Shown here piece after piece: positions 10,031 to 53,905 of a stretch of 64,000 nucleotides of DNA; within the stretch, counting starts at the first letter, position 1; every line of letters starts with the position of its first letter. A program made the translations under genes and the position numbers. Source of the stretch: Clitopilus passeckerianus (Eukaryota; Basidiomycota; Agaricomycetes; Agaricales; Entolomataceae); assembly GCA_944990035.1 (NCBI GenBank), contig CALYLX010000097.1, forward strand, positions 310,001-374,000, written 5' to 3'. The notes beneath the pieces were generated by a model. The model was given only the letters and a program-made list of their open reading frames with translations, searched no databases and had not been told where the DNA came from.

Positions 10031-12107
10031 CTAGCTATTTAGATTGGCGGCATACGAGAACAGAAGGATCGCCCCATCCGTGTGGCCTCTCTTTGACGCT
10101 AGACAATGAGCAGTTCTGCCTCGCTTGTCTGAGAAAATATGAGCTTTCATTCTCCACAGACCTAGGATATCCTCACCTTTCGCATTCACGCAAGCACCAT
10201 GGTCTATCAAGATTCGGATCACGTCTATGCGCCCTCGCAGAGCCGCTTCATGAAGTGCTGTTTGGCCTTTTTGATAATCTTGAAAAGGAACCCATGTCAG
10301 CCAAAACTTTTGCAAGATGATAGCAAGTTGTCTTACCTGTGGCGCTCATATCAGCACCTCGATCCAGAAGTTGCTTGACAACGTCTCCGTGGCCTCCTTT
10401 AGAGGCGAAGTGAAGTGCCGTACCAGATTTAAAACCTGGACCGCCAAGGTCATTATAGAATCACGGACACGGAATATCACTTACGTTTGGTGACGTCTGC
10501 AAGCTCGCTAAACCCCGCACCTTGTTCGTATAACCACTGAGTCATGGTAGCCGATCTCCCTTTGTCCATGTCCTCCCAATAAGGCGCTATTGAGCTGTTC
10601 CACCCTAGGGTTATTTTGAGAAAACGTAGTCACATTGACTATGAAGTCGCTTACCTCGAGCGTTGACATCGGCACCACTGTCAAGCAATAGTTCTACGAT
10701 GTCTCCGTGGCCGTGTTCTGCTGCTGTATGGAGCGCGACTTGGTTCCCCCCATCTCAAGGGATCATCATGTTAGAAAGCTAGTCAAATAAAAGTCGGCGT
10801 ATCTCGCACCTTTCGCATTCACATCGACAGATTGTTCTATCAAGAACTTTGCGGTATCGAAGTGTCCTTTTGCAGCAGCAACATGAAGTGTAGTTCTTCC
10901 GAACCAATCTGCAGTACGAAAATGAGAGGTTTATTCCAACAAGAATCCGGGAAAACACGTACCTTTTGCGTGGATATTCCCACCTATGCGAACCAAGTAC
11001 TTGATGGCATCTAGGCAACCTTTCTCTGTTGCGAGCCGTAGGGACTTCTCTGGATGGATATTAGTATAACCAAATCCTAGCTCGAAAACCGTATTTCTTA
11101 CCTTTGGCGTGGGGATCAGGCCCGAGCTCGCCCACGTAGCGGACAACGTCAAGCTGCCCCTCCTCCACAGCGGCTAGTAGTCGTTTCCCGAGATTCCTAG
11201 GCCGTCGCTGCAAGAGCGTTTCTATGAGGTCTCGGATGGGCACTAGAACCATTAGAAGGGCGAGAACCTGGCCGAACGTCCAGACGGAATCGTCATTGTC
11301 CATCAGCCGATGAGCATTCCACGCGATGGTCAATTCTGTATCGGCGAGAAGCACGGAATCGGCGATGGCCACCGCCATTATGCAGGCATATACGGGCATG
11401 ATACTCGGTTTGAAACCGAATGAGCGGAGCTGGGCGCAATAATACATGTAGAGAGGGCCCACGACAGCGACCAGGATGAGGGGAAACAATGGACAAAGAG
11501 CGTAAAAGACGAGAGATCCAGCTCTCAGTTCTTGGGATTGAAGAGGTATCCGGATGCCGATAACGGCAACAGAAAAGGATTCCAGACACGGCAGGGAGCC
11601 TTTGAAGGAATTAGGCCAGCCCCATAGCGCTAACCCAAGCAGTGACATGATGAACATGTGAAACCAGCCAATCATGAAGACAGGATTAATCAGAATCTTC
11701 CCAACCTCGCCACGCCAGGAGAACGACGCCCTCCTTGTGATAAGCCCATCATCCGAATTTCCCTGCTCCATGGCGCACATTCGGTGGTAGACGTAGAGTA
11801 GGAGATAAATGAACAGATTTGTGTTGTTGATTAGACTGAGATTGAGGATAATGGCGACGTGATATCGTGTAAGGCCGCCTGCGAAAGATTGAACGCCAGT
11901 GGATACGATGACGGCAAAGGCGGTGATGAGGATCGTACTCGACTGTGTCTCCAAGGTCTCCAGCTCGGTCGGTGTGACTTTCCCATCGAGGAGCGCAAGG
12001 ATTGCCGGCACGAAGCTGAGCAAATTCTGGGCATAAATCGAGACTCTTACGCCAATGCCAGAAATATCCGGATTCGATGGCAAACAGAAAGGAGCTGAGC
12101 TGGACAT
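10031..12107 (-). CDS. Membrane protein with C-terminal ankyrin repeats, copy 1
   Basis: The large first exon runs from 12107 to about 11100. I prefer the ATG at 12107 (MSSSAPF...) over the upstream one at 12164 because the paralogue starts at the equivalent place. It encodes the motif NPDISGIGVRVSIYAQNLLSF and about seven hydrophobic segments. The rest is ankyrin repeats, roughly one per small exon: ELGPDPHAKG, then 'EKSLRLATEKGCLDAIKYLV', 'GRTTLHVAAAKGHFDTAKFL', 'VALHTAAEHGHGDIVELLL', 'GTALHFASKGGHGDVVKQLL' and 'QTALHEAALRGRIDVIRIL'. Introns are 50-70 nt. The gene ends at 10031. Ankyrin repeats mediate protein contacts. The membrane domain is an Agaricomycete type without known function to me. 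A close paralogue is at 29023-31207, also upstream of a HET gene on the same strand. Confidence 0.75.
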
Positions 12108-12169
12108 GAAAGGTGATACAAAGAGAAATTGTCTGTCGAGTATATTTATGTTCGTTCGTGGCACTATCC

Positions 12170-18898: not shown

Positions 18899-21800
18899 TT
18901 ACTTTATGAACCGGAGTTTGGACTCTTTCAAGGTGTTGTTGCTCCAGTAGGGCAGCTTGATGCGGTCTTGGGTGGACACCCTCAACCAACGGCCCTGACG
19001 GAGACCTAGCAAGACGGCCAGATAAGGGGACTGCCGGCTGTTTGATACGCGCCCCAGGATGGCCACTTCAAGTCGCTCGTATTGAGCAAGATTCCCCGCC
19101 TCCACATCGATATTCCAAAGATCCTCGACCTCCAAACGAGACTTCACCACTGCCGACTCGTCAACCTTCTGCCCCTTATCATGAGCAGCGGAACCCCCAC
19201 TAAGGATCCGCACGCTATAACCTGGGAGCCATATACGCAATCCACGATTTGTCATGGTGTAGGTTTGGTCAATGGATTCATCCATCGAGGCCTCTTGCTG
19301 CGAAGCGAATGAGAGAGGGGAGAAGCAGTCTGGACCCGCCGCGAGCATACTGTTCTGGGTGGATGACAGTCCTTGCCAGGCAAACAGCCCCATATCGTCG
19401 CTACGCTGGAGGATTTCCACCTGCAACCTATAGAATGCAGCGTTGCCCTCCCCATAGGCAATGGTGAGTGGGACGTCCAGGAAACCGATGAGACAGTAGG
19501 CGATGTCTTCTATCCGAGTCGTACGCCTTTTGGAGACCCAGATTAGGGCGTCCCTGGCATGACTGATACCAGGGGTAAAGTTAAGAAGCGAGTCGACAGG
19601 TATTCCTGTAATCTTGGAGATGCGCTCCCAGAGAGGGACACCCAAGATATCGTCAGACACCTTGTCGTTATCGTCGAGGTTGGGCTGTGTTGGGGTAATG
19701 CGGCGCCATGATGTCCCAAAGAACAGGACTCTTTTCGGCGCCAAGAGCTCCTGTAGAGTCCATCCTCGAGTAAACCACAGATCTCTCTCCAGGGTTTCGA
19801 GCGAAGTGGTGTCGGCGAGGTGTATGATGCAAAGCTTGGAGTTTCGGTACCAGCTGAACATCGAACGTATCGATTCCTCGAGTTCAGCGCTTCTACTCTT
19901 GTCAATGCAGCCAGTGTCAAACCAGACGAACTGACAACCGTGTTGGGAGGCGATAGCGCAAAATTCGACGATCTTCACCAAGTCCGCACAGCTCTCTCGG
20001 ACGACGGGAGACATCCTATCACAGAATTCCTTCATAGCCGATAGCAGCCCGTTGTTTGGCTTCCCCGTGGTCGCTCCCGCTTCATCCGCGAAGCTGCCTA
20101 CTTTTTCCAAGATCTGTGCGCTGGTGTGCAGGTGGCGCGGATGTTCATCGTGCACCAGGCTCTTAAATCCGGTTATGCCGAGTTTCTCGAACTTGGCGAC
20201 ATCCTGAAAATTCAGTTCACCTTTATCGAGCCAGCGATGAGAAAATATTGCGTATGCCGCCTGTTTCGCGATCCACTCCTTTGCGCAGTTCCGGATATCC
20301 CCCTCAGTTTGGCTCGACCACTGGGGCCGTTTCTTCCATGGAAAATATTCATCGATGAACCTTGTGATTGCGCTCTGTAGAACACCTTTGATGCCTGGTC
20401 GTCGAAGAAGTTCCATGCCTCCGAGATGAAGAAGATAGATAGGAAGTTGGTTTTGAATGTGCTCGTCGATGGCATTGTTCATGGCTTGAGTGGGAGAAGG
20501 TGTTTCAACGCGTTTGTGACGGATTGGATGAAATCCACTTGCCTTCTATATATTGATTCTTGAAGATGTAACCGAGTTAGAAATAGTTGGCGCTTGAGAG
20601 AAATGGTAATACCCGCTGAAAGGGATGAAGACGCGACATAGAGATATGACACTGAGCAGATCGCTCTACTATCAAGAAAGCCTGCGTACCAACTATGGGA
20701 AATAATGAATGAAAGCCTCCTGAGCCAAGGTTCGGTATTCTTATGGGACGGGCTTACGTTCTAGAGTCACAAATAAAGGCATAGTTAGTCCAGGCGTGCA
20801 TGCAGACGGCGATATCCTTACTTCCTAAAGGTCATGAAGATTGTGGCGATGTTCGTAAGCAGATATTAATATTCGGACAGATTCACTTACTGTCTGAAGA
20901 CACAAGGTAGACGACACGGTTAGAGGCAATGTACGGGTTCAGCAATGCCACTCACTTTCTAGATATAGGAAAATGGGCATCCCTGATAAGTAAACAGGTT
21001 ATAACGCAGATACTGGCATACTCTCTGGGAAGTGGGAATGCGTGAGATCGTGTTAAGCACAAGGATATTCATACTCAATAGATGCACGGACTTTCTGAAG
21101 ACCCGAGGCAAACAACCATGGTAAGTCGACGAAAGGCCCTATTCAACGGCTCTACGTACTTCCTGAAAGACAAAAGGCAGATGAACATTTCAGCGCAAGA
21201 ATTTGAAGGCTAGGCGAGATTGCATACTTCCTAAAAGACGAAATTGAACATCGCGATAAATGCTTCGGTTACATCGACTTTAAAATCTCACCTACATCCT
21301 GAGAATGCGAAGGTAAACAGCCACGTAGGTGAACGGAGAGCAGCTAGTCAAACAACATACCCGCTAGGATGTCAAGGTGCATGTTAATAAGAGCATAGTC
21401 GTGCATACTCGAAAAATACACATACACGCTGTGGAGTGGAAGGTAGATACCCCTGGTAAGTGCATGGTTGTGCATGCTCGACAGAAAGTCCACGCACGTA
21501 CTGGGAAAGCAAAGGTACACGACCGTTGTAAGAGCCTTATGAATCAAAAGTTGACAGATCCACGTACTTTCTAAAGGATCGTTGACGAAAAGTCATCATA
21601 AGCGTTCCATATGAGCGTCTATACTCAATAGCTTGGCGTACTTCCTGATGGTGGCACGAAGATAACACCCATCAGCACACCAACGAAAATATCACGTACA
21701 AGCGTGACTTACTTCCTGGAATCGGAGGGACACGACTATAAGTATATGAACGTCGATTGTCAACAAATTCACGTACCGCCTGTATGACAAGGCAAACGAC

Positions 21801-24150
21801 CCTGGTAAGCGCAGGCTTACACATCGTCTGGTAGACTCACGTACACTCTGGAGGATCAATCGATCATGCCAGACAACCATGGTAAGACCACGGATATGGA
21901 TACTAAAGCTTCACCCACCGGCTGGAGATACAGAGCCAGAAATTGTTGGTAGGTTCATGAGAGTACATACCCGATGAAACCACGTACATTCTGAAGAGGA
22001 AGCCCTTGGTCAGTCACCAGAAGTGCATGAAAGTGTAAATCGAAGGGGTTTACGCACATACTATAGGCGTGAAGACGAAGCGCTATGGTCAAAGCCTTGA
22101 ATATGTGTACTCGGGAGGATTCACCTACCCACTGAAGAGGTTGTTCCAAGTAAGTCAACGTACGGCATATTTACGTAGATACACGTACATTCTGACCATT
22201 CAAAGGCAGATAACCATGATGAGTTCATGGGTGCGGATACAGGACGGACTAATTTGACGTACGAGCTAAAGAAATCAAACCAGACCGCGGTCGTCAGCAC
22301 AAGAGCGTGAATACTCAGGAAAGCCACCTACGTTCTGATGATGGATGGGAGAACCACTATGTTGAGTGCCTGAATATTCATACGTCATGGAACCACGTAC
22401 GCCCTGAGGATGTAAAGGTCGTTGGTGAATGAATGGCTCCATGTCCCAACGGATTCACGTACTTGCTGAGGAAGTAGAGCCAAACAAATAGTGGTCCTTC
22501 TCAGTCAGTATCTTGTGTCCACTCGATGGCCTCACATACTTGCTGGAGAGGAGAGCGGCCATGGTAAGTGCATGAGCATGAACACGCGATGGATTCACTT
22601 ACAAGCTGAAGAAACGGAGGTAAACCATTGCGAATGCTTAAACTGCAGGTTTGGTAGATTCACGCACCCACTGAAGAAGCAAGGCCGAATAGCCGTAATA
22701 AGAGCGTGAGCGTATTTTCTTATGCATTCACGTACTTCCTGACAGTAGGGAACCGTGATCAGTAAGGAGTATAATGACAAGCTTCACCATTCTCACGTAC
22801 TCGCTGACCAAGTGGGACCATTCACGGTAAGTGCATGAAGGCCCATATATAATGAATTCACGGACATACTAGACGAAGCACAGGTGGACACCCCAGACTT
22901 AGTCCCAGATCATGGATACAGGGAGGATTCACATACGCTCTAGAGAACCCATGGAGGGTATCGATGATGAGTGGAGGGATAGGTGCTCGGAAGGTATTTC
23001 ACGTACACGCTGGAGAAACAAATGCGGACGGCCCTAGTCAGAGCATGAGTCTGGGGTTTGAACGGTTCACGTACGTCCTGAAGAATCGAAGGCAGACGAC
23101 CTCAGTGAGCAAATGGATCTCCATACTCTTCATATGCACCCACATTCTGATGAGAGGAAGATGCGCAACCGATTTCAGTGGGTCAATGAGTATGCTTCGT
23201 AGATTCACTCACTTTCTGAAGACCCCTGAGTAAGTTTATGAATTTACAGAGTCGATGAATTCCCGCACCTCCTGAGGAACGCAAGCAGAGTAGCGTGGGT
23301 CAGAAAAGAAGTACAAACGCCCACTAAGTTTCGCCTACTTTCTCCTAGTTGTGAATCCGGAAAGACATGATGAGCAAATTAGTGACACTCCGACAGTTCC
23401 ACCTACTTTCTATCAATGGTCGGTGATTCGGGACAGTCAGCGACTGAACGAGAATACATCATAAAATCACATACCCGCTGGTTTTGCGAGAGAGGCGGGA
23501 TGTACTGAGCCATCGTCATCCCCGTGTGCGTCACATGTACTTACAAGCTGGGTTCATTGCATTAACATACATGTAGAGCGCGCTTCTTCCGGACGTTGAT
23601 AAGAGAACTTACTTCCTGGTGTCATTGACGAGTCAGTTGGTTGGTGTGAAAGGCTTAGAGTCTCATAAAGAGTACATGCTACCTAGGACGGGAAGACGGT
23701 GAATACTAGATTGATAATCAAGGTCTGATGATGCTACTCACTTTCTGGTTTACAGATACGCATGGTGCATGACATTAGAAAGCTTCTTTAGTATTTAGCA
23801 AGATCACACTTACCCACTGACAGGCAGATAGACGTTGAGCTAGAGTGGCTCCTCAAGTCACGATCCACTCACATCCTAGCGTAAATCGCCGAGTACGACA
23901 GTTAGGCGGTGACTCTCCTTGAGAGATGGTGACTTCTTACAAACTGGAAGAATAGTTGTGAAAGAAGGGTTCGGTAAGCTTCATCCCGTCAGAAGATGGC
24001 GAAAGTATACTTCTGTTTCCTTTACATGGCGGCGATATCAGTGCGATCAGTTTCTGGTGAGCTTGGCGCGTCACTCACCGAAGAGTTGTTGGCCGCCTGA
24101 AGCAATAGAGTCAACGCAAGCGTGTAGGCCTAGGCTAATTAACGCACCAT
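18899..24150 (-). CDS. HET-domain protein with single-codon-exon N-terminus (copy 1)
   Basis: The uninterrupted ORF 20482-18899 (527 codons) is a HET-domain protein. AYAIFSHRW lies at residues 76-84, CQFVWFDTGCIDKSRSAELE around 183-202, and LWFTRGWTLQELLAPKR around 235-251. HET proteins act in fungal non-self recognition and cell death. I extend the gene upstream. Directly before the ATG are 21 open codons in frame (20545-20483, starting K-A-S-G-F), preceded by ...CTAAC...TATATAG. That intron's donor (GTATTA at 20612) abuts CGG, the first of 50 tiny exons running to TTT at 23941, then 9 nt at 24011-24019, 18 nt at 24079-24096, and an ATG at 24148-24150 against a GTGCGT donor. All lengths are multiples of three. 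The product would be about 609 residues. The ORF is certain and the upstream extension is inference. The gene could instead start at 20482. Confidence 0.65.
20613..23943 (-). repeat. Array 1: tandem intron units separated by 3-nt exons
   Basis: There are 50 units, spaced 56-77 bp (usually 64-71). On the minus strand each reads YAG, triplet, GTRNGT-like donor. Triplets with plus coordinates of their first base, from the 5' end: 23941 TTT, 23873 GAT, 23814 TGG, 23742 AAA, 23680 GTA (GC donor), 23613 GAA, 23545 CTT, 23475 CGG, 23407 AAA, 23339 GAG+AAA, 23269 GAG, 23213 AAA, 23144 AAT, 23075 GAC, 23007 CGT, 22937 AGC, 22866 TAT, 22801 CGA, 22736 GAA, 22668 TGG, 22603 CTT, 22540 CAA, 22463 CAA, 22401 GGC, 22332 AAC, 22263 CTC, 22189 AAT, 22129 TGG, 22058 TAT, 21988 AAT, 21919 CCG, 21845 AGT, 21777 GCG, 21713 GAA, 21642 GAA, 21568 AAA, 21498 TAC, 21426 CGT, 21361 CGG, 21296 GAT, 21228 GAA, 21160 GAA, 21092 AAA, 21022 AGA, 20956 AAA, 20891 ACA, 20822 GAA, 20758 AAC, 20690 TTG, 20613 CGG. 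No stops. The introns are well diverged from one another, unlike array 2. Confidence 0.85.
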
Positions 24151-26116: not shown

Positions 26117-26614
26117 TCAGATTTTCTTAAAAACTAGCGGGATAAAAAACTGACGAATAACTTCCGGAATCTCCATTTGAGACTGGAACATTAACCGTCT
26201 ACTCGTAACCTCCCCTCTCGATGGTCCATCCGCTGGATTATACTTCCCATCCACCCACAGCACGCTAACCCCTTTCGCGTAACTCCTACAAAGTTGCCGA
26301 ATCCTTGTCAACACGGCTCTCTGTTGCTCATGCTTCGTTTCTCCTGTCTCCAATGCATGGGCAACTCCGGAATTATCAGAACGAATTAGAATGGTTCCGG
26401 AGTTGAATCCAGTTGCAAGAACGGCTAGTAAGCCTAATTCTACGGCCACCATTTCCGCCCAACAATTGTCTCGCCCGTCCGTGTTCCATCCTGGTTTGAA
26501 AGGCCATGCTAACCAGTGATTGTCGTGTACAAATCCGATGCCCCATTCTGATGCATCGACGAAGACTTCATAATACGTTTGTGGTTGGCTAGATGATCCA
26601 GGAGGGGGATTCAT
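26117..26614 (-). pseudogene. Retroelement RNase H domain remnant
   Basis: An open frame of 165 codons carries the hallmarks of an RNase H fold from a retrotransposon: YYEVFVDASEWGIGF (first Asp), WAEMVAVELGLLA (Glu), IRSDNSGVAHA (second Asp) and a C-terminal VDGKYNPADGPSRG. Such domains end the pol region of fungal LTR or tyrosine-recombinase retroelements. No reverse transcriptase or repeats are recognisable beside it, so it is an orphan fragment. Confidence 0.6.
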
Positions 26615-29022: not shown

Positions 29023-31207
29023 TCAAATATGACTATTAGGGTTAATATATAGCGTGCGCATATGAAAATGAACATCGAGCGAACCATCGCTCAGTGACTC
29101 CGATTGACTCGGAGTAACATCTCCCAGACGGGATCTTGTACGTTGTGCAGTGGCTCCATGCTCAGCCAAAAGGATCACTATATCTCTGTATCCTTGTTTT
29201 GTCGCAAGATAACGGGCGGTTCTACCCCGTTTATCTGAAGAATAATGAACATTATTTGAAGTCAATGTGGGATCGTTCTCACTTTTCGCGTCCAAATTAG
29301 CTCCGTGTCCAATCAGAGTTTTGACGATATCTATATACCCTGCCCTGGCTGCCTCGTGAAGTGGAGTTTGGCTCTTCAGATAATCTAAAAAGAAACCATA
29401 CGAATTAGACTACGCTCGTCATATGGAAGCACTCCTTACCTGTAGCATCAACGTCAGCGCCTCGCTCCGTCAGGACTCTGACTACATCTACGTAGCCTCT
29501 CATTGACGCAAAGTGAAGTGGCGTCCCCTGCTTCCAGCCTAAAAGGCAATGTCAGTATGAACTCGTCCCTTTGAAGCCTTCCTCACGTCTTTCAAAGTCC
29601 AGCTCCTTGAGCCCCATACCAATCAGCCATGGTACCAAATGAGCGGGCGTGGTTTCTTCCATTTCCTCCCAATAGGGCGCTATTGGACTGTTCCAACCTG
29701 ACAAAAAAAAATGTAGTCAAGGTTCTCACAGAATAGATGAATTACTAACCATGTTCATTCGCACTAGCGCCATGCTCAAGCAGGAATTTTGCAACCTCTG
29801 CGTGCCCACGATCTGCCGTAGCGTGAAGTGCGGTTTGATTGCTCGTATCTGGAAAGACAACATCAGCCTCTTCAGGACCAGAGTCGGATCTCTCCCACCT
29901 TTCGCATTTACGTCGATCCCACACTCGACAAGAATCCTGACGATATCTAAGTGTCCCCTCGCAGCTGCGACATGAAGTGCAGTCCTCCCAAACCAATCTG
30001 GAATGGCGACGTTAGTATGGCTAAACTCGAGTTAGTTATCTCGCACCTTTTGCATGTGCGTTGGCGTCTATATCAATCAAATACTTCGCTATGTCGAAAC
30101 AGCCTTTCTCTGCCGCTATACGAAGCGACTCATCTGTACTCACGTTATCAGCGGCAGCCTTCTCTGCAGACAGGACAGCTCACCTTTGGCGTAGTTATCG
30201 GGTCCCAACTCGCCCAAGTATCGAACAACATCCATCTTCCCCTCCCTCACGGCAGTCAAGAGGTCTTTCCCAAGCTTACTCGGACGCCGCTGGAGTAGCG
30301 CTTCTATGAGATCGCGGAGAGGAGCTAGCACCATAAGCAGAGCAAAAATCTGCCCAAATGCCCAATCATCGTCGCCTTGATCTGTTAGTGGAAAATTCCA
30401 TTTGATGCTCAATTCGGTATCGATGAGAAGGATGGCATGCATGATGCCCAGCGCCATCAGCCCAGCGGAGATCTGTCTAGTGCCAGTTATACGATTGGAG
30501 GCAGTAAAGTTCCTGCGACTATAGAAATAGAATGGCGCCGCAAGAAAGATCATGGGAATGAAGGCGTTCAGTATTGGGGGAAACAGGAGCGTGTAGACCA
30601 CGAGAGAGCATGTTCTCAGTACTGGGGATTCGAGGGGTATTCTTTGGCCTACGAAAGCCATGGAAATAGATTGGTAACACGGATGGAAGCCCCCAAAGTC
30701 AGCCGGACGGCCCCAGAGCCACAAGCCGAGCGATGATGTGAGAGACAAGTGGATGGAGCCCATCACAATGACGGGTTTCATCAAAGCCGTGAATATTTCA
30801 TCCTTCCACAAGAGGACCGTCTTTCGACTGGTCGTCGAGGTTTCGTTTAGGCTGTCCTGCATTCTTCGTTGTAGAATGCCTGTCCTGTGATAGATATACA
30901 GGAGAAGGTATATGAATAGGTTCGTATTGTTCATCAAGCTGAGATTGACGATGATCGTGGCGTGGTACGGCGTCAAGCGTGGAATATAATATTGGAAAAC
31001 GGAGAGGATGAGGGCAAAAGCGGTGATCAGAGTTGTTATGGATTGTGTTTCCAATCCTTCCATCTCGGCTGGAGTGACTTTTCCATCCACGAGTGCGAGG
31101 ATTGCTGGGATGAAGCTGAGGAGGTTTGTAGCGTAAATCGATGCTCTTACGCCGATTCCAGATATATCCGGGTTATAGGGCAAGCAAACGGCGGCCGGAC
31201 TAGACAT
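29023..31207 (-). CDS. Membrane protein with C-terminal ankyrin repeats, copy 2
   Basis: Exon 1 (31207-30184) starts MSSPAAVCLPYNPDISGIG and has about seven hydrophobic segments like the copy at 10031-12107. It ends at a GTGAGC donor. Ankyrin exons follow: ESLRIAAEKGCFDIAKYLI, GRTALHVAAARGHLDIVRIL, QTALHATADRGHAEVAKFLL, a non-ankyrin linker exon (GWNSPIAPYWEEMEETTP), then GTPLHFASMRGYVDVVRVL, QTPLHEAARAGYIDIVKTL and GRTARYLATKQGYRDIVILL, ending at 29023. Exon-repeat phase is regular. Inference: paralogous by duplication of an (ankyrin, HET) block. There is no premature stop in the parts I traced, so it is probably functional. The cellular role is unknown. Confidence 0.75.
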
Positions 31208-31249
31208 GAAGGGTGTTTGAAGAGGAAATCGAACGAAAGTCATTCATAG

Positions 31250-38110: not shown

Positions 38111-39850
38111 TTGGATGTATCGGTCCTACTTTATAAACCGGAGAACTGGCTTCTTCAGACTGTGCTGAGAGGGCAGCTTGAACCACTCCTCAGTGACTAC
38201 CCTCGACAGCTGGTCCCGGTTGTAGCCCAGCAAGATCGCCAGGTAAGATGACCCCCAGTCGTCCGAAATGTGTCCGAGAATAGCCATTTCGAGCCGGTCG
38301 TATTGAGATATGTTGCGCGTGTCTACGTTACACTTCCCCAGACCCTGGACATCCACCAACACACTATGGAATGAAGAAACCTTAGGGGGGAGTGTCACGC
38401 TATAAACTGGGAGCCGTATACGCAATCCGCGATTTGTCATCGAATAAGTTTGGTTGATAGAGTCGCTGATCGAGTTGAAACTCCAGCCCCATTGCTGTGA
38501 CGTAGGCAATGGACGGAATGGCTGGAATGAGAGGGGTAAGAAGGAGTCAGGGCCTGCCGCTAGCATGCTGTTCTCGACAGATGGCTGCCCCCGCCAAGCA
38601 AACAATCCCATGTCGTCACTACGCCGGAGGATTTCCACCTGCAACCTATAAAACGCCATGTTGCCTTCGCCGTAGGCAATTGAGAGTGGGATATTCAACA
38701 AGCCGATAAGACAATAAGCAATGTCTTCGATCCGTGTTGTTCGCCTTTTCGAGACCCAGACAAGGGCCTCCCTGGCGTGTTTAATCCCTGGCGTGAAGTC
38801 GAGAAGCGGGTCGATGGGTATCCTGGTAATTTTGGAGATCCGTTCCCAGAGAGGAACCTTCAAGACATCATCGGGTACTTTGTCATTGTCGTTCACATCA
38901 CTTCGCTTGGGGGTGATGCGCCGCCACGATTTCCCGAAGAACAGCACTCGTTTCGGGGCCAAGAGCTCCTGTAGAGTCCAGCCCCTAGTGAACCACGGGT
39001 CGTGCTGAAGGGTCTTCAAGGAAGTGTGTCTGCAAGGTGCACGATGCAGATCCTGGAGTTTCGGTACCAGTTGAACATTGACCGTATGGACTCCTCGAGT
39101 TCGGCGCTCCTGCTCTTGTCTATACACCCAGTGTCGAACCAGACAAATTGGCAACCTTGCTGCGAAGCAATATGGCAAAATTCGACGACCTTGACCAAGT
39201 CCGGGCAGCTGTCTTGTAGAATAGGAGACATCCTATCACAAAACTCCTTCATAACCTCAAGTAACCCGACTTGGAGATCCCGCCCATCCGTATCTGCCTC
39301 GCTTGTGAAGTTGCTCACGCTGCCTAGGATCTGTGCGCTGGTTTGTGGCTTGTGCGAAGATCTACCGTCCATCAAGCTCCGGAATCCGTCGGTACCCAGT
39401 TTCTCGAATGTGAAGATGTCCTGAAAATTCAGTTCACCCTTCTCAAGCCATCGATGAGAGAAAATGGCGTATGGAGTGCGTTCCATGATCCACTCCTTTG
39501 CATGACTCTGGACATCCCTCTCGGTTTTAATCCTCCACCCACTGCGTTTGTCCTCTGATAAATACCCCTCGATGAAGTCGGTAATGGTGCTCTGCAAAAC
39601 CGCTTTGATAGCGGGCCGGCGAAGTAGCTTCATGTCTTCGAGGTAAAGAAGATAAATTGGAAGTTGGTTTTGAATGTGTTCATCGATGACATTGTGCATG
39701 GCTTGAGCAGAAAAAAGCGGTTAATGGAGTCTGAGCTGGCCCTAACTTGAAGGAAATTCAACATGCCTTCAAGATGTCGATTCTTCGAGATGGGAGACAG
39801 TCAGATATTGTTAGTACTCGCCACACATCAAAGTAATAGGGTTGAAATAC

Positions 39851-42800
39851 CCGCTGAAATGAATAGAGGTGCCCACACAGAAAGCCTTTGCTCAACTAGT
39901 GGGTTTGACAGACGCGAGGAGTATGACACACCAACTGCAGGAGCAAAGAGGGAACAATCATAAGCAAAGGGTGCATATTCGTGAAAGACGTGCTTACTTC
40001 CTAAAGACGCAGACACGTAGAAGTATGGTGAGTACAGATACGTCGATAGTCCCAGTTCAAGTTGTCATACCGTCTACAAACCCAGAGAGGTGGGACACGG
40101 TCAGTGAACGGATATCAATACTTGACAGATTGACCTACGATCTTAAATAACAAAAACGCACGATCGTGAGAAGTGCATGGGTTTTTGTGCTTAATAACGT
40201 CACATACCCTCTGTCGGCATGGAGGCAGATGTCAGTGGTCAGCGGATGACAACACATGCCCCATGAATTGATGTACTGCCTAAAGATGGGAAGGCAGAGT
40301 ATAATGGTAAGTGGATGAATATGCATACTCGATTCACGCACCTCCTAAGGGACAAAGGCAAACAATAACAGTGAGCGAATGAATGTGCATAATTGATCTA
40401 TTCACACACTTCCTGAAGATGCGAAGGCAAAAACCCAGGGTAAGTGAACGAATGTGCATACTTAATCCATTCACGTACGATCTGAAGATGCGAAGGCAGA
40501 GAGTCATAAGCAAGTGGATGGATGTTCATAGTCAACCCATTCACGTACTCGCTGAAGATTCAGAGGCGGAGAATCATGGTAAGTGGGTGAGTGTGCATGC
40601 TCGATCATTCACGTACATTCTGAAGATGGTCAGGCCAACAATTATGGTAAGTGGACAAATGCGCATCCTTGATCTAATCACATACCTCCTGAAGATGGGA
40701 AGATGTACAATCATGGTAAACAGATGAATGTGCATACTCAACCAGTGCATGTACCTCCTGAAGATGCATAGGTAGATAACTATGGTAAGCAAATGAATGT
40801 GCATGCTCGATCCATTCACGTACTTGCTAAAGATGAAAAGATAGAGAATCATGGTAAGTGAATGAATGTTCATACTCGATGGATTTACGCACGATCTGAA
40901 GGTGTGATGTTATGGTGAAGAATAATAATGAATGGGTGTATGTGCATACTCAATCCCTTCACGTACGATCTGAAGACGGCCCATGGGGAGGCGGAAAATC
41001 ATGGTAAGCGCATCAATATGCACACTCAAACTATTCCCATACAAACTGAAGGTGCGAAGGCAAAAAATCAACGTAAGCAGATGAATGTGCATACTCGATT
41101 CATTCATGTACCTCCTGAAGATGCGAAGGCAGATAACCATGGTAATGAATGTGCCTGCTTGACCCATGCACGTGCTCGCTGAAGATGCCAAGGCGGAGGA
41201 TTATGGTAAGTGCAGGGATATGCATACTTAATCAATTTGCATACTTTCTAAAGACGCAAAAGCGGACAATGATAATCAGTGGATGAATGTGCATACCAGA
41301 TCCATTGGCGTACTCTCTGAAGATGGCCAGGCAGACAATCATCATGATGGTAAGCCATGGATGTGCCTACTCAATCAATTCACATACATTCTAAAGAGGG
41401 GAAGGCAGGTAGTTATGTTAACATAAATGTGCATATTCTATTGATCCACGTACCTCCTGAAGATTCAAAGTGGAAGATTGTCTTAAGGGAATGAATGTGT
41501 ATACTTGGTCTGGTCACATACTTCCTGAGAATGCAGAGGCAGACAATGATGGTAAGTGGCTGAATGTGCCTAGTCACTCCATTGACATACTCTCTGAAGA
41601 TGGGCCGGTAGACAATCATCGTAAGTCCATGAATGTGCCTACTCGATCCATCCATGTACTTTCTGAGGTTCCGATGAGAAATAATCATGATAAGTGAATG
41701 AATGTGCAAGGTCAATTTATTGAGGTACCCTCTGAAGATGTGCAGGGCAGACAATCATTATGGGTGCATGGGTGTGCATAGTTAATCAATTCACGTACAT
41801 TCTGAATGTGCGATGGGATAGAATCATAGTAAGCAGATGAATGTGCATACTTGATCAGTTCACGTACCTCCTGAACAGGCCAAGGCGGAGAATCATGGTA
41901 AGTGGATGAATATCCATGCTCGATTGATGCACGTACCTCCTGAAGTTGGATAGGCGGAGAATTGTGATAAGTTAATGGAGGTGCACACATCATCATTTGC
42001 GTACCTCCTGAAGATGGGTAGGTGTAAAATCCTGTTAAATGCATGAATCTGCATACTTGATTTATTCACTCACCTCCTGGAGATGGGAAAACAGATCCAG
42101 ACAATCACGTTAAGTGCATGAATGTGCATACTCAATCTATTCACGCACTCTCTGAAGATGCGAAGGTGGACAATTCTGGTAAGTGCGTGAGTATGCATAC
42201 TCGGTCGATTCACGTACTGTCTGAAGAGGGGCCAGGCAGACAATCATTGTAAGTGTATAAATGTGCATACTCAATCTGTCAACGTACTTCCTGAAGAAGC
42301 AAAAACAGATAATCGTGGTAAGCGCATGAATGTGTATACTCGACCCATTCATGTACAAACTGAAGATGCAAAGCCGTAAAATCATGGTAAGTACGTGAAT
42401 GTGCAGAGTCAATCCATTCACGTACACTCTGCAGAGTGGAAGGCGTACAATCATGGTCAGTGTACGAATGTGCATATTCAATCGGTGCATATACCTCCTG
42501 AAGATGTGAAGGCGGACAATCCTTGTAAGTGAATGAATGTGCATACTCGATCCATTCACGTACGCCCTGTTCAAAGGTGGACAATCATGGTAAGCACATC
42601 AATGTGCACACTTGATTCATTCACATACAAACTGAAGATGCAAAGGCGGACGATCCTCGTAAGTGAATGAATGTGCACAATTGACCCATTCACGTACTTT
42701 CTGAAGATGCAAAGGCAGACAATCATGGTCAGTGCGTGAATGTGAATAATCAATTCTTTCACCTACTCTCTAAAGAAGCAAAGGCGTACAATCATGGTCA

Positions 42801-43529
42801 GTGCATGAACGTGCACACTTGATCCATTTACGTACTCTCTGAAGAAGCAAAGGCGGACAATCATGGTAGGCGTATGAATGTGCAAACTCGACCCATTCAC
42901 ATACAAAATGAAGATGCGGAAGAGGAGAATCAAAGTAAGTGGATCATGTTCGTACTTGATCCATTCACGTACGTCCTGACAATAGGAAAGCAGACAATTC
43001 CGGTAAGGACATGAATGTGCATAATCCATTCAGCCACATACGAACTGAAAATGCGAAAGTGCAGAACTGTGGTAAGTTCGTGAATGTACATATGTACATA
43101 GTCAATCCATTCACGTACTATCTGAAGATGAGAAGGCGTACAATCATGGTAAGTGCACGAATGTGTATACTCGATTGATTCATGTACCTCCTGAAGGTGC
43201 GAAGGTGGCCAATCTTGGTAAGTGTATGAACGTGCCTACTTGATCAATTCACGTACTTCCTGAAGACGAGAAGGCGTAAAATTGGGGGTGAATGTGCATA
43301 GTCAATTCATTCACGTACTCTCTAAAGATGTGAAGGCAGACAATGGTGATTAGTGGATGAATGTGCGTACTAAAGCCATTGACGTACGATCTGAAGATGG
43401 GAAGGCATACAATCATGAATGAATTTGCATACTCAGTAACTCAATCGGTTCACGCACATCCTAAAGATGCGACGGCAGCCACTTCTGGTGAGTGCATGAA
43501 TGTGCATACTGGATCCATTCAAGTACCTC
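39851..43529 (-). repeat. Array 2, proximal block: 54 single-codon units of about 69 bp
   Basis: Spacing is 69 bp for about half the units. Introns are much more alike than in array 1 (minus-strand pattern GTACGTGAATNGATCGAGTA ... CACTTACCATGATTGTC ... CATCTTCAG). Triplets from 43527 downward: GAG, GAT, ATC, AGA, GAA, GAG, ATA, TTC, GAC, TTT (42905, acceptor CAT instead of CAG), AGA, AGA, AAA, TTT, GGC, GAG, AGT, TTT, GAA, ACA, AGA, GAG, GAG, GAG, GAG, AAT, AGG, AAA, AGA, GAA, GAG, AAT, AGA, AAA, CGA (41176, GC donor), GAG, TTT, ATC, ATC, CAA, GAG, GAG, AAT, CGA, ATC, GAA, GAG, GCA, AGG, ATC, ACG, GAA, TTG, CGG. The last two (39932, 39851) equal those of array 1. The coded residues are strongly E/R/K/F-biased. 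Confidence 0.85.
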
Positions 43530-43563
43530 CTGATGACGTCGCAGCACACAACCTTTGTAAGTA

Positions 43564-45170
43564 CAGTGGGCAACAAAACCCTTCCAATGTTTGCTACTTT
43601 TCCAAAGATGTGTTAATAGCTAATGAAATAAATTATGCAAAATCTTGAAAATAATATATATCATAGTTCAATGTCTTGGCTTGATGCTGACATAACCCTG
43701 AGGCTGTGCTTCCACTTTTAGCAGGTGTTTCACACAGTACAAGGTGGTGACCTATTGGAAGGGTTTTGTTGCTACTGATTTTAAAAACAGAAATACATTA
43801 ATTTTAGTACTTAGTCCACTTTCCCTTAGCATCAACTACTGCCTGAATCCTTCTAGGCATTGACTCTATTAAGTTCTGGCACACCTCTGCTGGAATAGCA
43901 TTCCAAACCTTCTCTACTCTTGCCCAAAGCTCTAATACTCTATTAGGTGGAGAATTATACTTGCTAAGCTCTTTTTTGACATGAACCCAAAGATGTTCAA
44001 TAGGGTTCATATCAGGAGAGTTTGCTGGCCAGATTAGAACCTTCATTTTGTGGTGTTTAAATTATTCCTTGGCCATGTTGATGGTGTGCTTGGGGTCATT
44101 GTCCTGCTGAAAAATCATATCCTTCACTTTTACCTTATAGTACTTTAGGCTAGCCTGAAGTTCCTCCTCCAGGATTGAAGTGTAAAGGACCTTGTCCATG
44201 GTACCTTCAATTTTGGTAGCATATCCAACCCCATCCCATCCCATACAGCCCCACATCATAATATTTCCTCCTCCAAATTTCCGGGTTTCTTTGATGTGTC
44301 GCTTGTTAAGCCCCTCCTCCTTCCCTGCCCATACTCTCTCATTCCCATCTGCCCCAAACCGGTTGATTTTAGTCTCATCAGACCAATAGACCTTCTTCCA
44401 ATCATCTACAGTCCACTCTTTATGCCTCTCTGCACACTCCTTCCGTGCACGAATATGCTTCTGGTCAAGTGCAGATCGTTTCACCTTTCTGAAGGACTTC
44501 CAACCAGTGATTTTGAGGCCCCTGCATACTGTCTGAGGTGTGACAGTTGTGTTGGTAATATCTTGAAGAACTCTAGCAGCTTGGACAGCTGTAGAAATCT
44601 TGCCCATGCACATATTGAGTTTTGTGTATTTGATGTTGGCAGGCGTAAGCTTGGGAGGACGGCCACCAGATAACTTGGAAAGGTGAGAACAGTGCTTATC
44701 ACGTATTCTGCTAATAGAAGCAAGGCCAATACCAGTCTTTTTATGAATATGAGTGGCAGAGAGGCCAGTATGAAGCAGTTCAATGACATGGGTAGTCTGA
44801 GCCTTGGTGAGAGCATGCATGATGGGTTGGGGGCAAAGCAGCACTTGGGTCAGCTGTATATATAGTGTACTGACACTCTAGTCACATGACCTTGTTGACT
44901 ACTATCAACAAACTCGAGTATCATGTGACTTATCACATGATTACTAGATTCAAAACACCTAGCAACAAAACCCTTCCAATAGGTCACCACCTTGTACTGT
45001 GTGAAACACCTGCTAAAAGTGGAAGCACAGCCTCAGGGTTATGTCAGCATCAAGCCAAGACATTGAACTATGATATATATTATTTTCAAGATTTTGCATA
45101 ATTTATTTCATTAGCTATTAACACATCTTTGGAAAAGTAGCAAACATTGGAAGGGTTTTGTTGCCCACTG
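43564..45170 (-). mobile_element. Tc1-like transposon copy A (1607 bp)
   Basis: Ends CAGTGGGCAACAAAACCCTT and its inverse are flanked by TA on both sides (43562-43563, 45171-45172). Long terminal arms (about 210-230 bp) include an internal inverted copy of the GCAACAAAACCCTTCC block. Removing the element leaves exactly 69 bp between array codons 43527 and 45205, so it inserted inside one array intron. It is the same length as copy B. Confidence 0.85.
43804..44844 (-). pseudogene. Tc1-like transposase, copy A, nonsense-mutated
   Basis: Near-identical to the intact transposase of copy B (HTH then DDE with WSDETKINRFG, IFQQDNDPKHT, SPDMNPIEHLW), but a TAA at 44062-44064 splits it. The local differences (Trp, Asp and Arg codons hit in a run of about 20 bp) are mostly G-to-A on the coding strand. 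Likely unable to make full transposase. Confidence 0.8.
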
Positions 45171-45204
45171 TAGATGGATGTGCAAACTCAATTGATTTAC
45201 GTAC

Positions 45205-45893
45205 GAACTGTGGATTTGAAGCCATATAATCATGGTAAGTGAATGGGCATATGGTTGATCGATCCACGTACTCTCTGATGTTGCGACGTGGACAATTATG
45301 GTAAGCAGATGAATATGCATACTTGGTCCATTCACTTACACCCTGAAGATGCGAAGGTGGGTGATCATAGTAAATGCATGAGTTGGCATGCCCAATTGAT
45401 TCACACACCACCTGAAATGCAAAGGCGGACGGTTACCGTAAGTGCATGAATATCCATACTCGATAGATTCACGTACAAACTGAAGATGTGAAGGCAGGTG
45501 GCTATAGTAAGTCAATGAATGTCCATAGTCGATAGATTCACATACTCTCTGAAGATGCAAAGGTGGACAATGATGGTCAGTGCCTGAATGTGTATACTCG
45601 AGAGGTCCACATACAAGCTGAAGCTGCCAAGGCAGACAATCATGGTAAGTCATGAATGTGCCTACTCGATTGATCCACGTACAGACTGAAGTTGGGAAGG
45701 CCGAGAATTAAGGTAAATACATGAAAGTGCACACTCGGTCCACTTTACGTACTCTCTGAATGTGCAAAGGCAGACAATTACGGTAAGTGCCTGAATGTGT
45801 ATACTCGAGAGGTCCACATACAAGCTGAAGATGCAAAGGCGGTTAACCATGCTCAGTGAATGAATGTTCATACTCGACCGATTCACATACCAA
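45205..45893 (-). repeat. Array 2, middle block: 11 units
   Basis: Continuation of the array between transposon copy A and the gypsy/Tc1 nest. Triplets from 45891 downward: TTG, CTT, AGA, TCT, CTT, AGA, TTT, GTG, GGT, AGA, TTC. Spacing is 67-70 bp and the same intron borders are kept. Confidence 0.85.
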
Positions 45894-46189
45894 CTGAAGA
45901 TGTGTTACAGTTACCTTGGATACGCATCCGGACTCTTTTTCCCTTCTTACTAATTCACTGTTACTACTTCAGCCCACTTACATTTACTTGATTACTCTAC
46001 AGTGCTGTGCATTACTCATCCCTCTTACATTGATTATTCAGTATTCTCACGATCGTGAGATACTTGTACTATATTTACTCATCATGACTCATAGTGACTC
46101 TTACCCCGACTCGCTCTAAGTCATACTTATTTTTACTTACACAGCATTGCTGTGCAATGCCCAACCCTTAGCCCTATCAGTCTTGTATA

Positions 46190-47796
46190 CAGTGGGCAAC
46201 AAAACCCTTCCAATGTTTGCTACTTTTTCAAAGATGTGTTAATAGCTGATGGAATAAATTATGTAAAATCTTGGAAATAATATATATCATAGTTCAATGT
46301 CTTGGCTTGATGCTGACATAACCCTGAGGCTGTGCTTCCACTTTTAGCAGGTGTTTCACACAGTACAAGGTGGTGACCTATTGGAAGGGTTTTGTTGCTA
46401 CTGATTTTGAAAGCAGAAATACATGGATTTTAGTACTTAGTCCACTTTCCCTTGGCCTCAACTACTGCCTGAATCCTTCTAGGCATTGACTCTATTAAGT
46501 TCTGGCACACCTCTGCTGGAATAGCATTCCAAACCTTCTCCACCCTTGCCCAAAGTTCTAATACTCCACTAGGTGGAGAATTGTACTTGCTAAGCTCTTT
46601 TTTGACATGAACCCAAAGATGTTCAATAGGGTTCATATCAGGAGAGTTTGCTGGCCAGATTAGAACCTTCATCCTGTGGTCTTCAAACCATTCCTTGGCC
46701 ATGTTGCTGGTGTGCTTGGGGTCGTTATCCTGCTGGAAAATCATATCCTTCACTTTTACCTTATAGTACTTCAGGCTATCCTGAAGTTCCTCCTCCAGAA
46801 TTGAAGTGTAAAGGACCTTGTCCATAGTACCTTCAATTCTTGTAGCATATCCAACCCCATCCCACCCCATACAGCCCCACATCATAATATTTCCTCCTCC
46901 AAATTTCCGGGTTTCTTTGACACGTCGCTTGTTAAGCCCCTCCTCCTTCCCTGCCCATACTCTCTCATTCCCATCTGCCCCAAACCGGTTGATTTTAGTC
47001 TCATCAGACCAATAGACCTTCTTCCAATCATCTACAGTCCACTCTTTATGCCTCTCTGCACACTCCTTCCGTGCACGAATATGCTTCTGGTCAAGTGCAG
47101 GTCGTTTCACCTTTCTGAAGGACTTCCAACCAGTGTTTTTGAGGTTTCTGCGTACTGTCTGTGGTGTGACAGTTGTGTTGGTAATATCTTGAAGAACTCT
47201 AGCAGCCTGAACAGCTGTAGAAATCTTGCCCATGCGCATGTTGAGTTTTGTATATTTGATGTTGGCAGGTGTAAGCTTGGGAGGACAGCCACCAGATGAC
47301 TTGGGAAGGTGAGAACAGTGCTTGTCACGTATTCTGCTGATAGAAGCAAGGCCAATTCCAGTCTCTTTATGGATATGAGTGGCAGAGAGGCCAGTATGAA
47401 GCAGTTCAATGACATGAGTAGTTTGAGCCTTAGTGAGAGTGCGCATAATGGGTTGGGGGCAAAGCAGCACTTGGGTCAGCTGTATATATAGTGTACTGAC
47501 ACTCTAGTCACATGACTTTGTTGACTACAATCAACAAACTCAAGTATCATGTGATAAGTCACATGATTACTGGATTCAGAACAACTAGCAACAAAACCCT
47601 TCCAATGGGTCACCACCTTGTACTGTGTGAAACACCTGCTAAAAGTGGAAGTACAGCCTCAGAGTTATGTCAGCATCAAGCCAAAACATTGAACTATGAT
47701 ATATATTATTTCCAAGATTTTACATAATTTATTCCATCAGCTATTAACACATCTTTGAAAAAGTAGCAAACATTGGAAGGGTTTTGTTGCCCACTG
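46190..47796 (-). mobile_element. Tc1-like transposon copy B (1607 bp)
   Basis: Termini and length equal those of copy A. TA is duplicated at 46188-46189 and 47797-47798. It sits inside the presumed 5' LTR/leader of the gypsy element, so it arrived after that element. Confidence 0.85.
46430..47470 (-). CDS. Tc1-like transposase, intact
   Basis: 346 residues. The N-terminal helix-turn-helix region (THVIELLHTGLSATHIHKET, then SGGCPPKLT) binds the terminal repeats. The DDE catalytic core has Asp in YWSDETKINRFG, Asp in IFQQDNDPKHTS and Glu in SPDMNPIEHLW. It acts in the nucleus, cutting at TA targets. No stop or frameshift is present, and the element has both ends, so it may be active. An open frame on the opposite strand is a shadow. 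Confidence 0.9.
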   Translation of the reverse strand: MLLCPQPIMRTLTKAQTTHVIELLHTGLSATHIHKETGIGLASISRIRDKHCSHLPKSSGGCPPKLTPANIKYTKLNMRMGKISTAVQAARVLQDITNTTVTPQTVRRNLKNTGWKSFRKVKRPALDQKHIRARKECAERHKEWTVDDWKKVYWSDETKINRFGADGNERVWAGKEEGLNKRRVKETRKFGGGNIMMWGCMGWDGVGYATRIEGTMDKVLYTSILEEELQDSLKYYKVKVKDMIFQQDNDPKHTSNMAKEWFEDHRMKVLIWPANSPDMNPIEHLWVHVKKELSKYNSPPSGVLELWARVEKVWNAIPAEVCQNLIESMPRRIQAVVEAKGKWTKY

Positions 47797-48042
47797 TAAA
47801 TACTTTCACGCTTTTGGTCTTGCTTCCCCAGCTTGACCTAAAAGCCTATACATCGCTATTTGCTTTAACTTCGACTTGCTCGATTACTCTCGCTTGTCTC
47901 TACAAAGGCTGGTAGAAGACTGAGCAGCTGAACCCTTGATACTTGTTTAAGCGAGTAGCGATACTAGCTTAATAAAAGGTCAAGCTGATCTGATAGCCCA
48001 CTCATCGCAAGCATAGGCCACAACCACCAACCACCCGACTGC

Positions 48043-49275
48043 ATGAGGTGCACCACTCTTGCAGGAACTACCGAAATCATGTGTCTCTCAAGACCACCAA
48101 ACACTTCAACTCCCACAGGAACAGCCAACGTAGTACAACTCGACGACAGTACTTACGCGGAGTTTGATTACAATGCAAGTAGGTGGAGACACTTGGTACC
48201 GAAAGAAGAAGACCTGCACAAATTTCAATTTGGCGCTAACCTCGACAACTCTTACTTCACCGAAGTAACTACCCCCGAACCCGAACCACAGACAGACCCT
48301 GAATCAGAATCAGAAACAGAATCAGAACCCCACAGACCAACCTACATTCCAACACCCACGCAAACTCTGAGACAAGAACAGCAAACGATGGCTCATGACG
48401 ACTCTGAAACAAAGAAACTTGCTGAACTCCGAATCGGACAACTATTCGAATATGATGGTGACCGAAGAAACACTGAAGTTTGGTTGTTGGAAGTCAAGAT
48501 GTACCTGACCCTGAATCAACACATCTATGACAACAACAATAAACAGATTGCCTTTGCACTTTCCTTTTTGAAAAAGGGAACCGCCTTGGCATGGAAACGA
48601 TCTTTCTGCCAGAACTACAGTGACAAAGATAACAACATTATCTTTCCTGACTTCAAGCAGTTCGAAAAAGAATTCGTCAACACCTTTTTCCCAGTAGATG
48701 GAGAAGGACAAGCATTTGCGTCTTTAGACGCTCTCACCCAGAAAGGACAAATTGATGATTACATCTCTCAATTTAAAGTCCTTATTGCTGCCTCGGGAAT
48801 TTCCGACGAAAAGGCAAAAATCGAATTCTTTCAGAAAGGACTCAACTCCAAGATCATTGAGAAGATCTATAACCTCTCCACTCTTCCCACAACAATTGAT
48901 GGATGGTATGACCATGCCGCCCGATTTGATGCACAATGGCGTCAAGGACAGAATGTCATCCGCCGCAACAGAGGACTTCCCCCTATTGCCCATGCAAACT
49001 CCCGCAACACCCATACCACGGCAGACCCGAACGCTATGGACATTGACGCCTTATTCTTTGAAAAAAGAAAGGAGTTAATGAAGGAAGGGAAATGCTTCCG
49101 TTGCTTCAAGAAAGGACATCGCTCTCGAGAATGCCCGGAACGCAGAGGAGGAAAGCAATCCACTAGCACCAACTCTTATGGCAAGAAAAACATCAAAGAT
49201 CTTGTCCGGACCATCAGAGCACTGGAAGCAGAAGAACTAGACAAGTTCTGGGAGGAGCTCGATGAGGATTTTTAG
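48043..49275 (+). CDS. gypsy gag polyprotein
   Basis: 410 codons. An acidic N-terminal part (PESESETESEP) is followed by a capsid-like region (ELRIGQLFEYDGDRRNTEVW, FALSFLKKGTALAW, INDYI-type segment) and a CCHC zinc knuckle C-x2-C-x4-H-x4-C (CFRCFKKGHRSREC) near residue 355. The true start could be the later ATG at 48388, which begins the conserved part. It packages the element RNA. Confidence 0.75.
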   Translation: MRCTTLAGTTEIMCLSRPPNTSTPTGTANVVQLDDSTYAEFDYNASRWRHLVPKEEDLHKFQFGANLDNSYFTEVTTPEPEPQTDPESESETESEPHRPTYIPTPTQTLRQEQQTMAHDDSETKKLAELRIGQLFEYDGDRRNTEVWLLEVKMYLTLNQHIYDNNNKQIAFALSFLKKGTALAWKRSFCQNYSDKDNNIIFPDFKQFEKEFVNTFFPVDGEGQAFASLDALTQKGQIDDYISQFKVLIAASGISDEKAKIEFFQKGLNSKIIEKIYNLSTLPTTIDGWYDHAARFDAQWRQGQNVIRRNRGLPPIAHANSRNTHTTADPNAMDIDALFFEKRKELMKEGKCFRCFKKGHRSRECPERRGGKQSTSTNSYGKKNIKDLVRTIRALEAEELDKFWEELDEDF

Positions 49276-49325
49276 AACGGCGGCCAGTATCAACCTCTGA
49301 ACCCGCCATAACACTGATTTCTTCT

Positions 49326-49646
49326 ATGTCGTATGCAGAACCTTTTGAAAAATCTATGCGTCTACCCATAAAGGTCTCTGCCCCGAACGAAGAAAGAACC
49401 GTTGAAACCAAAGCACTAGTCGACTCAGGTGCTCAAGGACTATTCATTGACAAAGAATTCGTCGCCCACCATCGAATCAAAACACATCCCCTCCGACAAT
49501 CTCTCACTGCCAAAAATGTTGACGGCACTATCAACAAAACAGGGCAAATCACTCATTACAATTGGGTCGATATAGGGATAGGGAAACACAAACGATGCCT
49601 GGTCACTGGATTAGGGAATGAACACCTGATCCTCAGACTCCCATAG
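49326..49646 (+). pseudogene. gypsy aspartic protease region
   Basis: Contains ALVDSGAQGLFIDKEFV, the DSG active-site motif of retropepsins, just downstream of gag. It ends at a stop before the expected linker to RT, so the polyprotein is broken here. Confidence 0.6.
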
Positions 49647-50075
49647 CTGAAGCGAACGAATCCAGAAATCAACTGGCAAAAGGGGACACTATTCATTAAT
49701 CCCAAACACGTCAAGACATCCCCGCTATGCACAGCCCTTGCCCGAGTCCAGATCAGACAACTAGCCGCAACAGAAGAATCACATCCAGACATTCCCAATA
49801 TACCTGATGAACCCGAACCCCTTGAAACACCACTGAACGAACCCAATATGGAAGAAGACCTGGTTATTGCCTATGTGAAAGGAGAACCAGTAATGGGGAT
49901 ATTTGAACGAGCCTATTCCCCATTAACAAACGAACATCGAGAACCTGAGACCAGAAGGATCCGGGCTGCCAACATCTCCCGAATTACCCGCGACAGAGGA
50001 TCACTACGATTCATACCAACCCAGAACGTCTGGATCCGTGCAAAGATATTTACGAGATGCGGTCCGTTCTACTAA

Positions 50076-52560: not shown

Positions 52561-52564
52561 TTAG

Positions 52565-53901: not shown

Positions 53902-53905
53902 ATAC

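Follow-up and report, generated by a model that had tools for sequence, protein, structure and literature searches.

What is the sequence in front of a HET gene of the fungus Clitopilus passeckerianus, in which units of about 69 nt follow one another and each seems to carry a splice acceptor, a triplet and a splice donor? The locus, which we call A, lies in positions 310,001-374,000 of the forward strand of contig CALYLX010000097.1 (C97) in assembly GCA_944990035.1, a genome of 64.8 Mb. This whole stretch of 64,000 nt is referred to as the window, and coordinates without a contig name are positions in it. A first-pass annotation had read the repeats as a functional N-terminal region written almost one residue per exon. 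We find it very probable, from the DNA of this locus and its relatives, that they are protein-coding genes with an N-terminus assembled from tandem units of a small intron plus one codon and spliced onto the HET domain. Beyond the earlier reading, the analysis revealed a gene family, codons that outpace introns in some pairs of copies, and the exact join to HET.

The model of locus A spans 24150-20484 on the minus strand and has 55 exons and 54 introns giving 594 aa in frame, in the order ATG, 18 nt, 9 nt, 50 small exons, 16 nt and HET. The proposed start codon (24148-24150) abuts the first donor, GTGCGT; its A is position 24150, at which the first-pass annotation had ended the feature, and an ATG abutting a donor is likewise present in A2, C, D, L026, L027, L028, L030, C155a and a gene at C155:278.5 kb, relatives that are described below. 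The 18-nt exon (24096-24079, AANNSS) and the 9-nt exon (24019-24011, ETE) were found as previously claimed, and the latter has counterparts elsewhere in the family: AMETE (15 nt) in C and D, KTQ/ETQ in C36/C34, and RLE and ELE in C155a and C106. The array itself (23943-20613) also came out as described, with 49 single-codon exons and one 6-nt exon (GAGAAA, 23344-23339) separated by 49 introns, and reads FDWKVELRKEKEKNDRSYREWLQQGNLNWYNPSAEEKYRRDEEKRKTENLR. It is followed by a 16-nt exon (20558-20543) that encodes NQYIE and the first base of the next codon, leading from phase 0 to phase 1, by a GC-AG last intron of 58 nt in phase 1 (20542-20485), and by the HET exon (20484-18899), which has 527 aa from an internal ATG. 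The match to the HET profile (Pfam PF06985) reaches 36.5 bits against a cut-off of 22.5 and covers profile positions 38-93 of 146 at residues 174-229 of the open reading frame (ORF); the nearest protein among the matches listed is from Flammula alnicola (55%). Introns in A are 51-74 nt long, with 52 GT and two GC donors as parsed and with 36 CAG, 16 TAG and two AAG acceptors, one TAG being replaced by AAG in the final model. With at most 15 nt and consensus splice sites, the predicted exons of the array are microexons.

The parser used general fungal splice-site weights that were not trained on this genome, and it ignores translation. When exon lengths of 0-20 nt were weighted equally, internal exons of exactly 3 nt still dominated (A 46/53, A2 44/50, D 84/91, C 68/74, and 40/45 in the 3' piece of array B), and the array is therefore no artefact of seeking threes. 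Under this flat prior the five arrays scored 253-547, compared with 6-19 for shuffled sequences and 22-126 for the plus strands; array A scored 277, its plus strand 22 and five shuffled versions 9-17. With the tuned parser, five out of 22 tiles of 5.5 kb across the window scored 84-401, all of them on the minus strand and all containing array, and the remaining 17 scored 5-20.

Selection on splice sites and exon length can be read from the sequence. The introns of array A differ pairwise by 0.55 on average, compared with 0 at donor position +1 and the acceptor AG and 0.07 at donor +2 and +5; these low values are partly built in, as the parser demands GT or GC and AG, and within that limit the claim of a kept acceptor-triplet-donor core amid diverged introns is borne out. 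Across 43 windows of two introns each, taken from 16 loci, no column was invariant except (again partly built in) the donor G, the branch A, the acceptor AG and the GT of the next donor. Between A and A2, 2/216 GT/AG sites differ, both as GT versus GC, compared with 301/2969 (about 10%) at other intron sites. Length changes affected none of the 53 exons and 15 of the 54 introns, which agrees with the earlier proposal of selection rather than recent copying, and in three pairs together exons changed length in 0/96 cases and introns in 28/99.

The codons themselves appear to be constrained by splicing. CAG makes up 0/29 of the glutamine codons in the arrays and 178/291 (61%) in 15 HET exons, and AAG 1/45 of the lysine codons compared with 202/364 (55%). 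It is likely that both codons are avoided, as they would create competing acceptors. GAG is also low in the arrays overall (25/119 vs 61%), and a general preference for A in the third place therefore explains part of this avoidance. In array D, however, GAG outnumbers GAA (17 vs 9), yet CAG and AAG together account for 0/10 (p = 4e-4).

The reading frame is the second line of evidence. Counts were pooled over 16 arrays with 522 single-codon exons, after five last triplets overlapping the 16-nt exon had been dropped (A, L026, L027, L028, L030). The pool leaves aside A2, B and L014-L019 (copies, or pieces of arrays that enter the count elsewhere), P106/P155, L024, L032, L033 and L035, as well as L029 (HET with two stops and an irregular array parse), L031 (the same array as L038) and L036, L037 and L039, which have no array. 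No in-frame stop was found among the 522 exons where 35.5 were expected from base composition by position, a contrast whose probability is overstated since the units copy each other; with the full C155a array added, there were none in 592. In the three phases stops number 0/1/5 in A, 0/1/7 in D, 0/3/3 in C and 0/11/5 in C155a. Between A and A2, 5/61 codons changed: three changes are synonymous and lie in the 3- and 6-nt exons, and two are non-synonymous and lie in the 18-nt exon. P155/P106 has two changes in 22 codons, both synonymous, and L034/L035 has none in 26. In these three pairs together, which were picked after all six had been seen, codon positions 1 and 2 differ at 1/218 sites and introns at 438/5099 (p = 2e-7). 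The stop-free frame and the avoided codons, together with the purely synonymous array changes of A/A2 and the same layout in paralogs, are what would be expected if the claimed one-residue-per-exon coding N-terminus exists.

The same data speak to an explanation that we regard as improbable, namely that the array is a non-coding minisatellite before a HET gene starting at its own ATG (20482), its intron look being inherited from a founder unit, or that the whole array is one long intron. Such a view would account for the units being tandem copies and for the HET ORF having, by itself, an ATG near the start of the homologs' models. A minisatellite would not be expected to retain splice signals and exon length in diverged arrays, nor a stop-free phase 0 with synonymous-only changes between the arrays of A and A2 and avoidance of CAG and AAG, and some HET exons (e.g. 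those of L021-L023) have no ATG at that place.

How the array joins HET was settled by comparison across loci, because the frame is kept there despite indels. In A and A2 the parser picks TAG|AAG before HET, a choice that would shift HET out of frame. A direct reading from TAG|AAG at 20545 into HET was rejected, as it is in frame only in A and a 1-nt deletion breaks it in A2. The phase-1 last intron is GC-AG in A, A2, B, C and D and contains a 1-nt indel between A and A2 and a 7-nt difference between B and D, both of which the frame survives. The 16-nt exon, read for example as NQYIE, VAYMQ, APYIQ or ASYSE, together with the phase-1 intron keeps HET in frame at 19/20 loci tested, a count that has no chance baseline; in L026 a second, implausible solution exists besides the fitting one. 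This frame into HET is a further point in favour of the coding N-terminus.

Locus A is one of many. A protein search of the genome with HET gave 26 matches, of which 23 have an array in the flank examined, among them L034/L035 at 42% identity; the three without are L036 (40%), L037 (43%) and L039 (a 133-residue fragment, 46%). Pfam-HET matches in the genome number at least 18, and all 18 listed fall in array loci. Four DNA queries taken from arrays found, among the listed matches, only arrays upstream of HET genes, with 5-10 candidates scored per query, so that distant units would escape. Arrays have from roughly 13 to 99 introns in a row. The richest gene fetched, C155a, consists of ATG, 27 nt, 9 nt, 95 single codons, 16 nt and HET, which makes 100 modelled exons and 632 aa, and the shortest arrays, L027 and L030, have 11 single codons each. 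Units measure about 69 nt in the arrays of C97/C157 and C36/C34, and several arrays of C155/C106 have units of 53 nt. The most frequent intron lengths in the family are 50 or 66 nt.

The stretch C157:530001-571457 aligns in order with window positions 14961-55982, mostly at 83-91%, and the contig pairs C97/C157, C36/C34, C155/C106 and C101/C98 look like the two haplotypes of a dikaryon. On C157 (551899-558433, L011) there is a HET-plus-array gene, C, with 71 single-codon exons that was not found in the corresponding part of the window; to judge from this alignment, locus C is a case of presence/absence variation. L029 and B are damaged copies, and the HET copy of L029 (C106:161237-162709) has two internal stops and an irregular array parse upstream. 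L036 and L037 (on C13 and C113) are HET homologs at 40-43% identity with an open frame of 612 residues; they have no array in the flank examined and could serve as an outgroup for the origin of the array. The most distant array genes, L034 and L035 (on C101 and C98; HET 42%), mix 3-nt exons with 6- and 12-nt ones, and this is perhaps an earlier or looser form. In a second C36 gene an apparent intron stands directly after ATG, followed by SGNE..., and in the C36/C34 pair ATG continues into SGTE... (L049, L050, L054), as if the first intron had been lost or gained among these genes. An intronless copy of the N-terminus of D was not present among the genome matches listed, in which only the HET start was matched.

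The region encoded by the arrays has roughly 17 to 113 residues, most of them charged, and is rich in Glu, Arg and Lys. Trp (17) and Phe (25) exceed their expectations of 4.2 and 4.0 in the array codons, and Gly, His and Val are under expectation. A start of the form [ETE/ETQ/KTQ/RLE/ELE]-[F/I]-[D/N]-W is common to 10/11 long arrays with the start seen (A, A2, B, C, D, C36, C34, the second C36 gene, C155a and one C106 gene) and is missing from the gene at C155:278.5 kb. In some pairs of copies the codons have diverged more than the introns. The HET domains of L027/L030 and of C36/C34 are each 95% alike, and differences amount to 12/36 nt in exons and 60/752 in introns in the former pair (12/33 in exons, p = 1e-5, without a misparsed last triplet). 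In C36/C34 they amount to 67/150 in exons and 354/3273 in introns (p = 3e-24), in an alignment that is ambiguous because of near-identical units, though exons were matched to exons only. In the young arrays C36 and C34, no other part of the unit varies as much as the codon (0.67 and 0.58 in exons, 0.21 in introns). Unlike codons amid alike introns suggest that selection holds the codons apart. Units with the same codon share their flanks, as copied modules would, in C36 (p = 0.003), and do not in C34, D and C.

These observations bear on the possibility, which we judge to have little chance of being right, that the array is a splicing-based brake on HET expression, with codons that need only be harmless and splice well. 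Dozens of splices ahead of the HET exon would be slow, and the tilt of codon choice to NNA, in counts that still include last triplets overlapping the 16-nt exon, is what a splicing constraint might produce. A brake would leave unexplained the common start motif and ends and the conserved array residues of A/A2, and the excess of Trp and Phe as well as codon divergence above that of introns in two pairs argue that the residues themselves matter. Finally, a straight-through protein of 23-residue repeats with one variable residue per repeat can be dismissed together with an antisense ORF, for although young 69-nt units are open over 540 aa in C34 and 310 aa in C36 (460 and 310 in shorter loci), stops on both strands interrupt 14/14 arrays or parts in all six frames, with 14 in the best C34 frame, and introns are not multiples of 3 in 42/54 cases in A and 27/27 in L022.

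Several results weigh against genes built from one-codon exons and against the role that we assign to them. The plus strand of D scored 126 with 61 pseudo-introns, and therefore the repeat itself gives part of the parser signal. At the join, L034 has a sole 16-nt-exon solution, with a GAG acceptor and an intron of 191 nt, which was not counted, and C36/C34 could also be joined to HET directly in phase 0. To the two non-synonymous A/A2 differences in the 18-nt exon two more are added in the 16-nt exon (NQ/SR). In the B/D tail (L033/L017), a small sample, positions 1 and 2 differ at 3/48 sites versus 8.4% in introns, which is no conservation and fits a dead B. For two spliced N-termini, database searches gave nothing at E<=10, and thus no independent homolog, and Pfam gave no match above cut-off for three; in the 527-aa ORF of locus A, HET alone was above cut-off, and the single match among solved structures (E 0.4) was disregarded. 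The strings resemble a coiled coil, yet the hydrophobic moment at 100 degrees was significant in only 1/9 N-termini (0.07 in C155a), and neither a helix nor a coiled coil is claimed. The case for a recognition role is one of analogy.

For the coding genes that we favour, we infer that the predicted RNA is spliced as modelled. Each unit would consist of exactly one codon and a small spliceosomal intron that brings a GTRNGT donor, a branch A and a YAG acceptor of its own. Intron definition would remove the introns singly and the codons would be joined in phase 0; from general knowledge of splicing, the splices would have to be successive, since the introns on either side of a 3-nt exon cannot both use it at the same time. 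The joined codons would then meet the common 16-nt exon of the family and, after it, the HET exon. In fungal incompatibility, HET domains act as effectors of cell death. By analogy, the codon string may serve an allorecognition or immune protein as a region for recognition or assembly that evolves fast, a role to which we give somewhat less than an even chance. Gain or loss of a unit would add or remove whole residues with no frameshift. We are more doubtful that the array is a device for codon-by-codon diversification in non-self recognition, with unequal recombination generating alleles through the insertion, deletion or swapping of single residues, and the skipping of any subset of exons generating many protein variants, both frame-safe. 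The allelic half would fit C36/C34 (47 and 57 single codons, with ends alike and middles unlike) and L027/L030, and the transcript half is conjecture.

In openly licensed literature we found no title or abstract start that describes runs of single-codon exons. Two families of genes with many tiny exons are nevertheless comparable. The products of the schistosome micro-exon genes (MEG) evolve fast. Aphid bicycle genes have many micro-exons, but are not known to have one codon per exon or tandem repeat units, and they encode unrelated proteins. The schistosome genes resemble the arrays in being a family with many tiny exons, which range there from 3 to 81 bp (PMC10526429); unlike the short introns of the arrays, theirs are long, up to 5 kbp, and in the part of that paper available no tandem run of one-codon exons with repeated small introns was found. 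Like the arrays, bicycle genes form a fast-evolving family recognised by gene structure and not by sequence (PMC9168663). Exact splicing of isolated exons of 1-3 nt, which annotation misses, is documented (PMC4674806, PMC7392893, PMC8831610): Arabidopsis APC11 has a 1-nt exon, the previously known minimum being 6 nt for constitutive and 3 nt for alternative exons (PMC4674806), and Drosophila homothorax has a 3-bp exon (PMC7392893). Plant microexons are, in the source seen, single or two adjacent (5 and 12 nt; PMC8831610), versus 11 to 95 consecutive ones here, and according to a 2024 paper functional microexons had not previously been described in filamentous fungi (PMC11121469). Introners and introns from tandem duplication likewise give many similar introns by copying (PMC9860276, PMC4457414, PMC4974935); unlike introners, which enter many genes, array units were found only beside HET genes among the matches listed. 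The nearest functional analogue is the HNWD family of Podospora, in which arrays of WD repeats gain and lose repeats under concerted evolution and rearranged repeats alter specificity (PMC2873952). In contrast to HNWD, the repeat here is an intron plus one codon and not a protein WD repeat, and unlike HNWD and NLR genes no NACHT or WD40 was found above the Pfam cut-off beside HET in the 527-aa ORF and three spliced N-termini.

The window holds a second array locus, B, also on the minus strand (38126-54680). Its array is in three pieces: a 5' piece with two 15-nt exons followed by the single codons FDWKKESEE (53973-54680), a middle piece with 11 single-codon exons (45205-45893), and a 3' piece through its 16-nt exon (39767-43529), in which one acceptor has decayed (CAT at 42898-42916). 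The HET gene of B lies in two overlapping frames (38126-39699). Between the pieces there are Tc1-type transposase ORFs (44062-44844, 46430-47470, 52645-53661) and retroelement ORFs (gag-like 48043-49275, RT-like 51346-52038). To judge from its DNA, locus B is a natural dead copy, comparable to D. Elsewhere on the minus strand, two ORFs (11061-12164 and 30140-31243) are alike, with 367 residues and a common C-terminal tail; by eye they are membrane-protein-like, and they have no Pfam match. Another minus-strand ORF (26117-26614) shows a weak likeness, below cut-off, to the C-terminal domain of viral-type polymerases and is 91% alike on C157.

If confirmed by RNA, these genes would represent an extreme of exon-intron structure, with 100 exons for 632 residues and a single codon in 95 of these exons, and the spliceosome would have to manage dozens of successive splices around 3-nt exons in each transcript. 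Such genes would be a naturally occurring system in which to test intron definition and splicing order, and they would form a class that annotation takes for intergenic repeats and that gene finders would overlook. For the family itself, the arrays would offer a frame-safe route for evolving a recognition region residue by residue.

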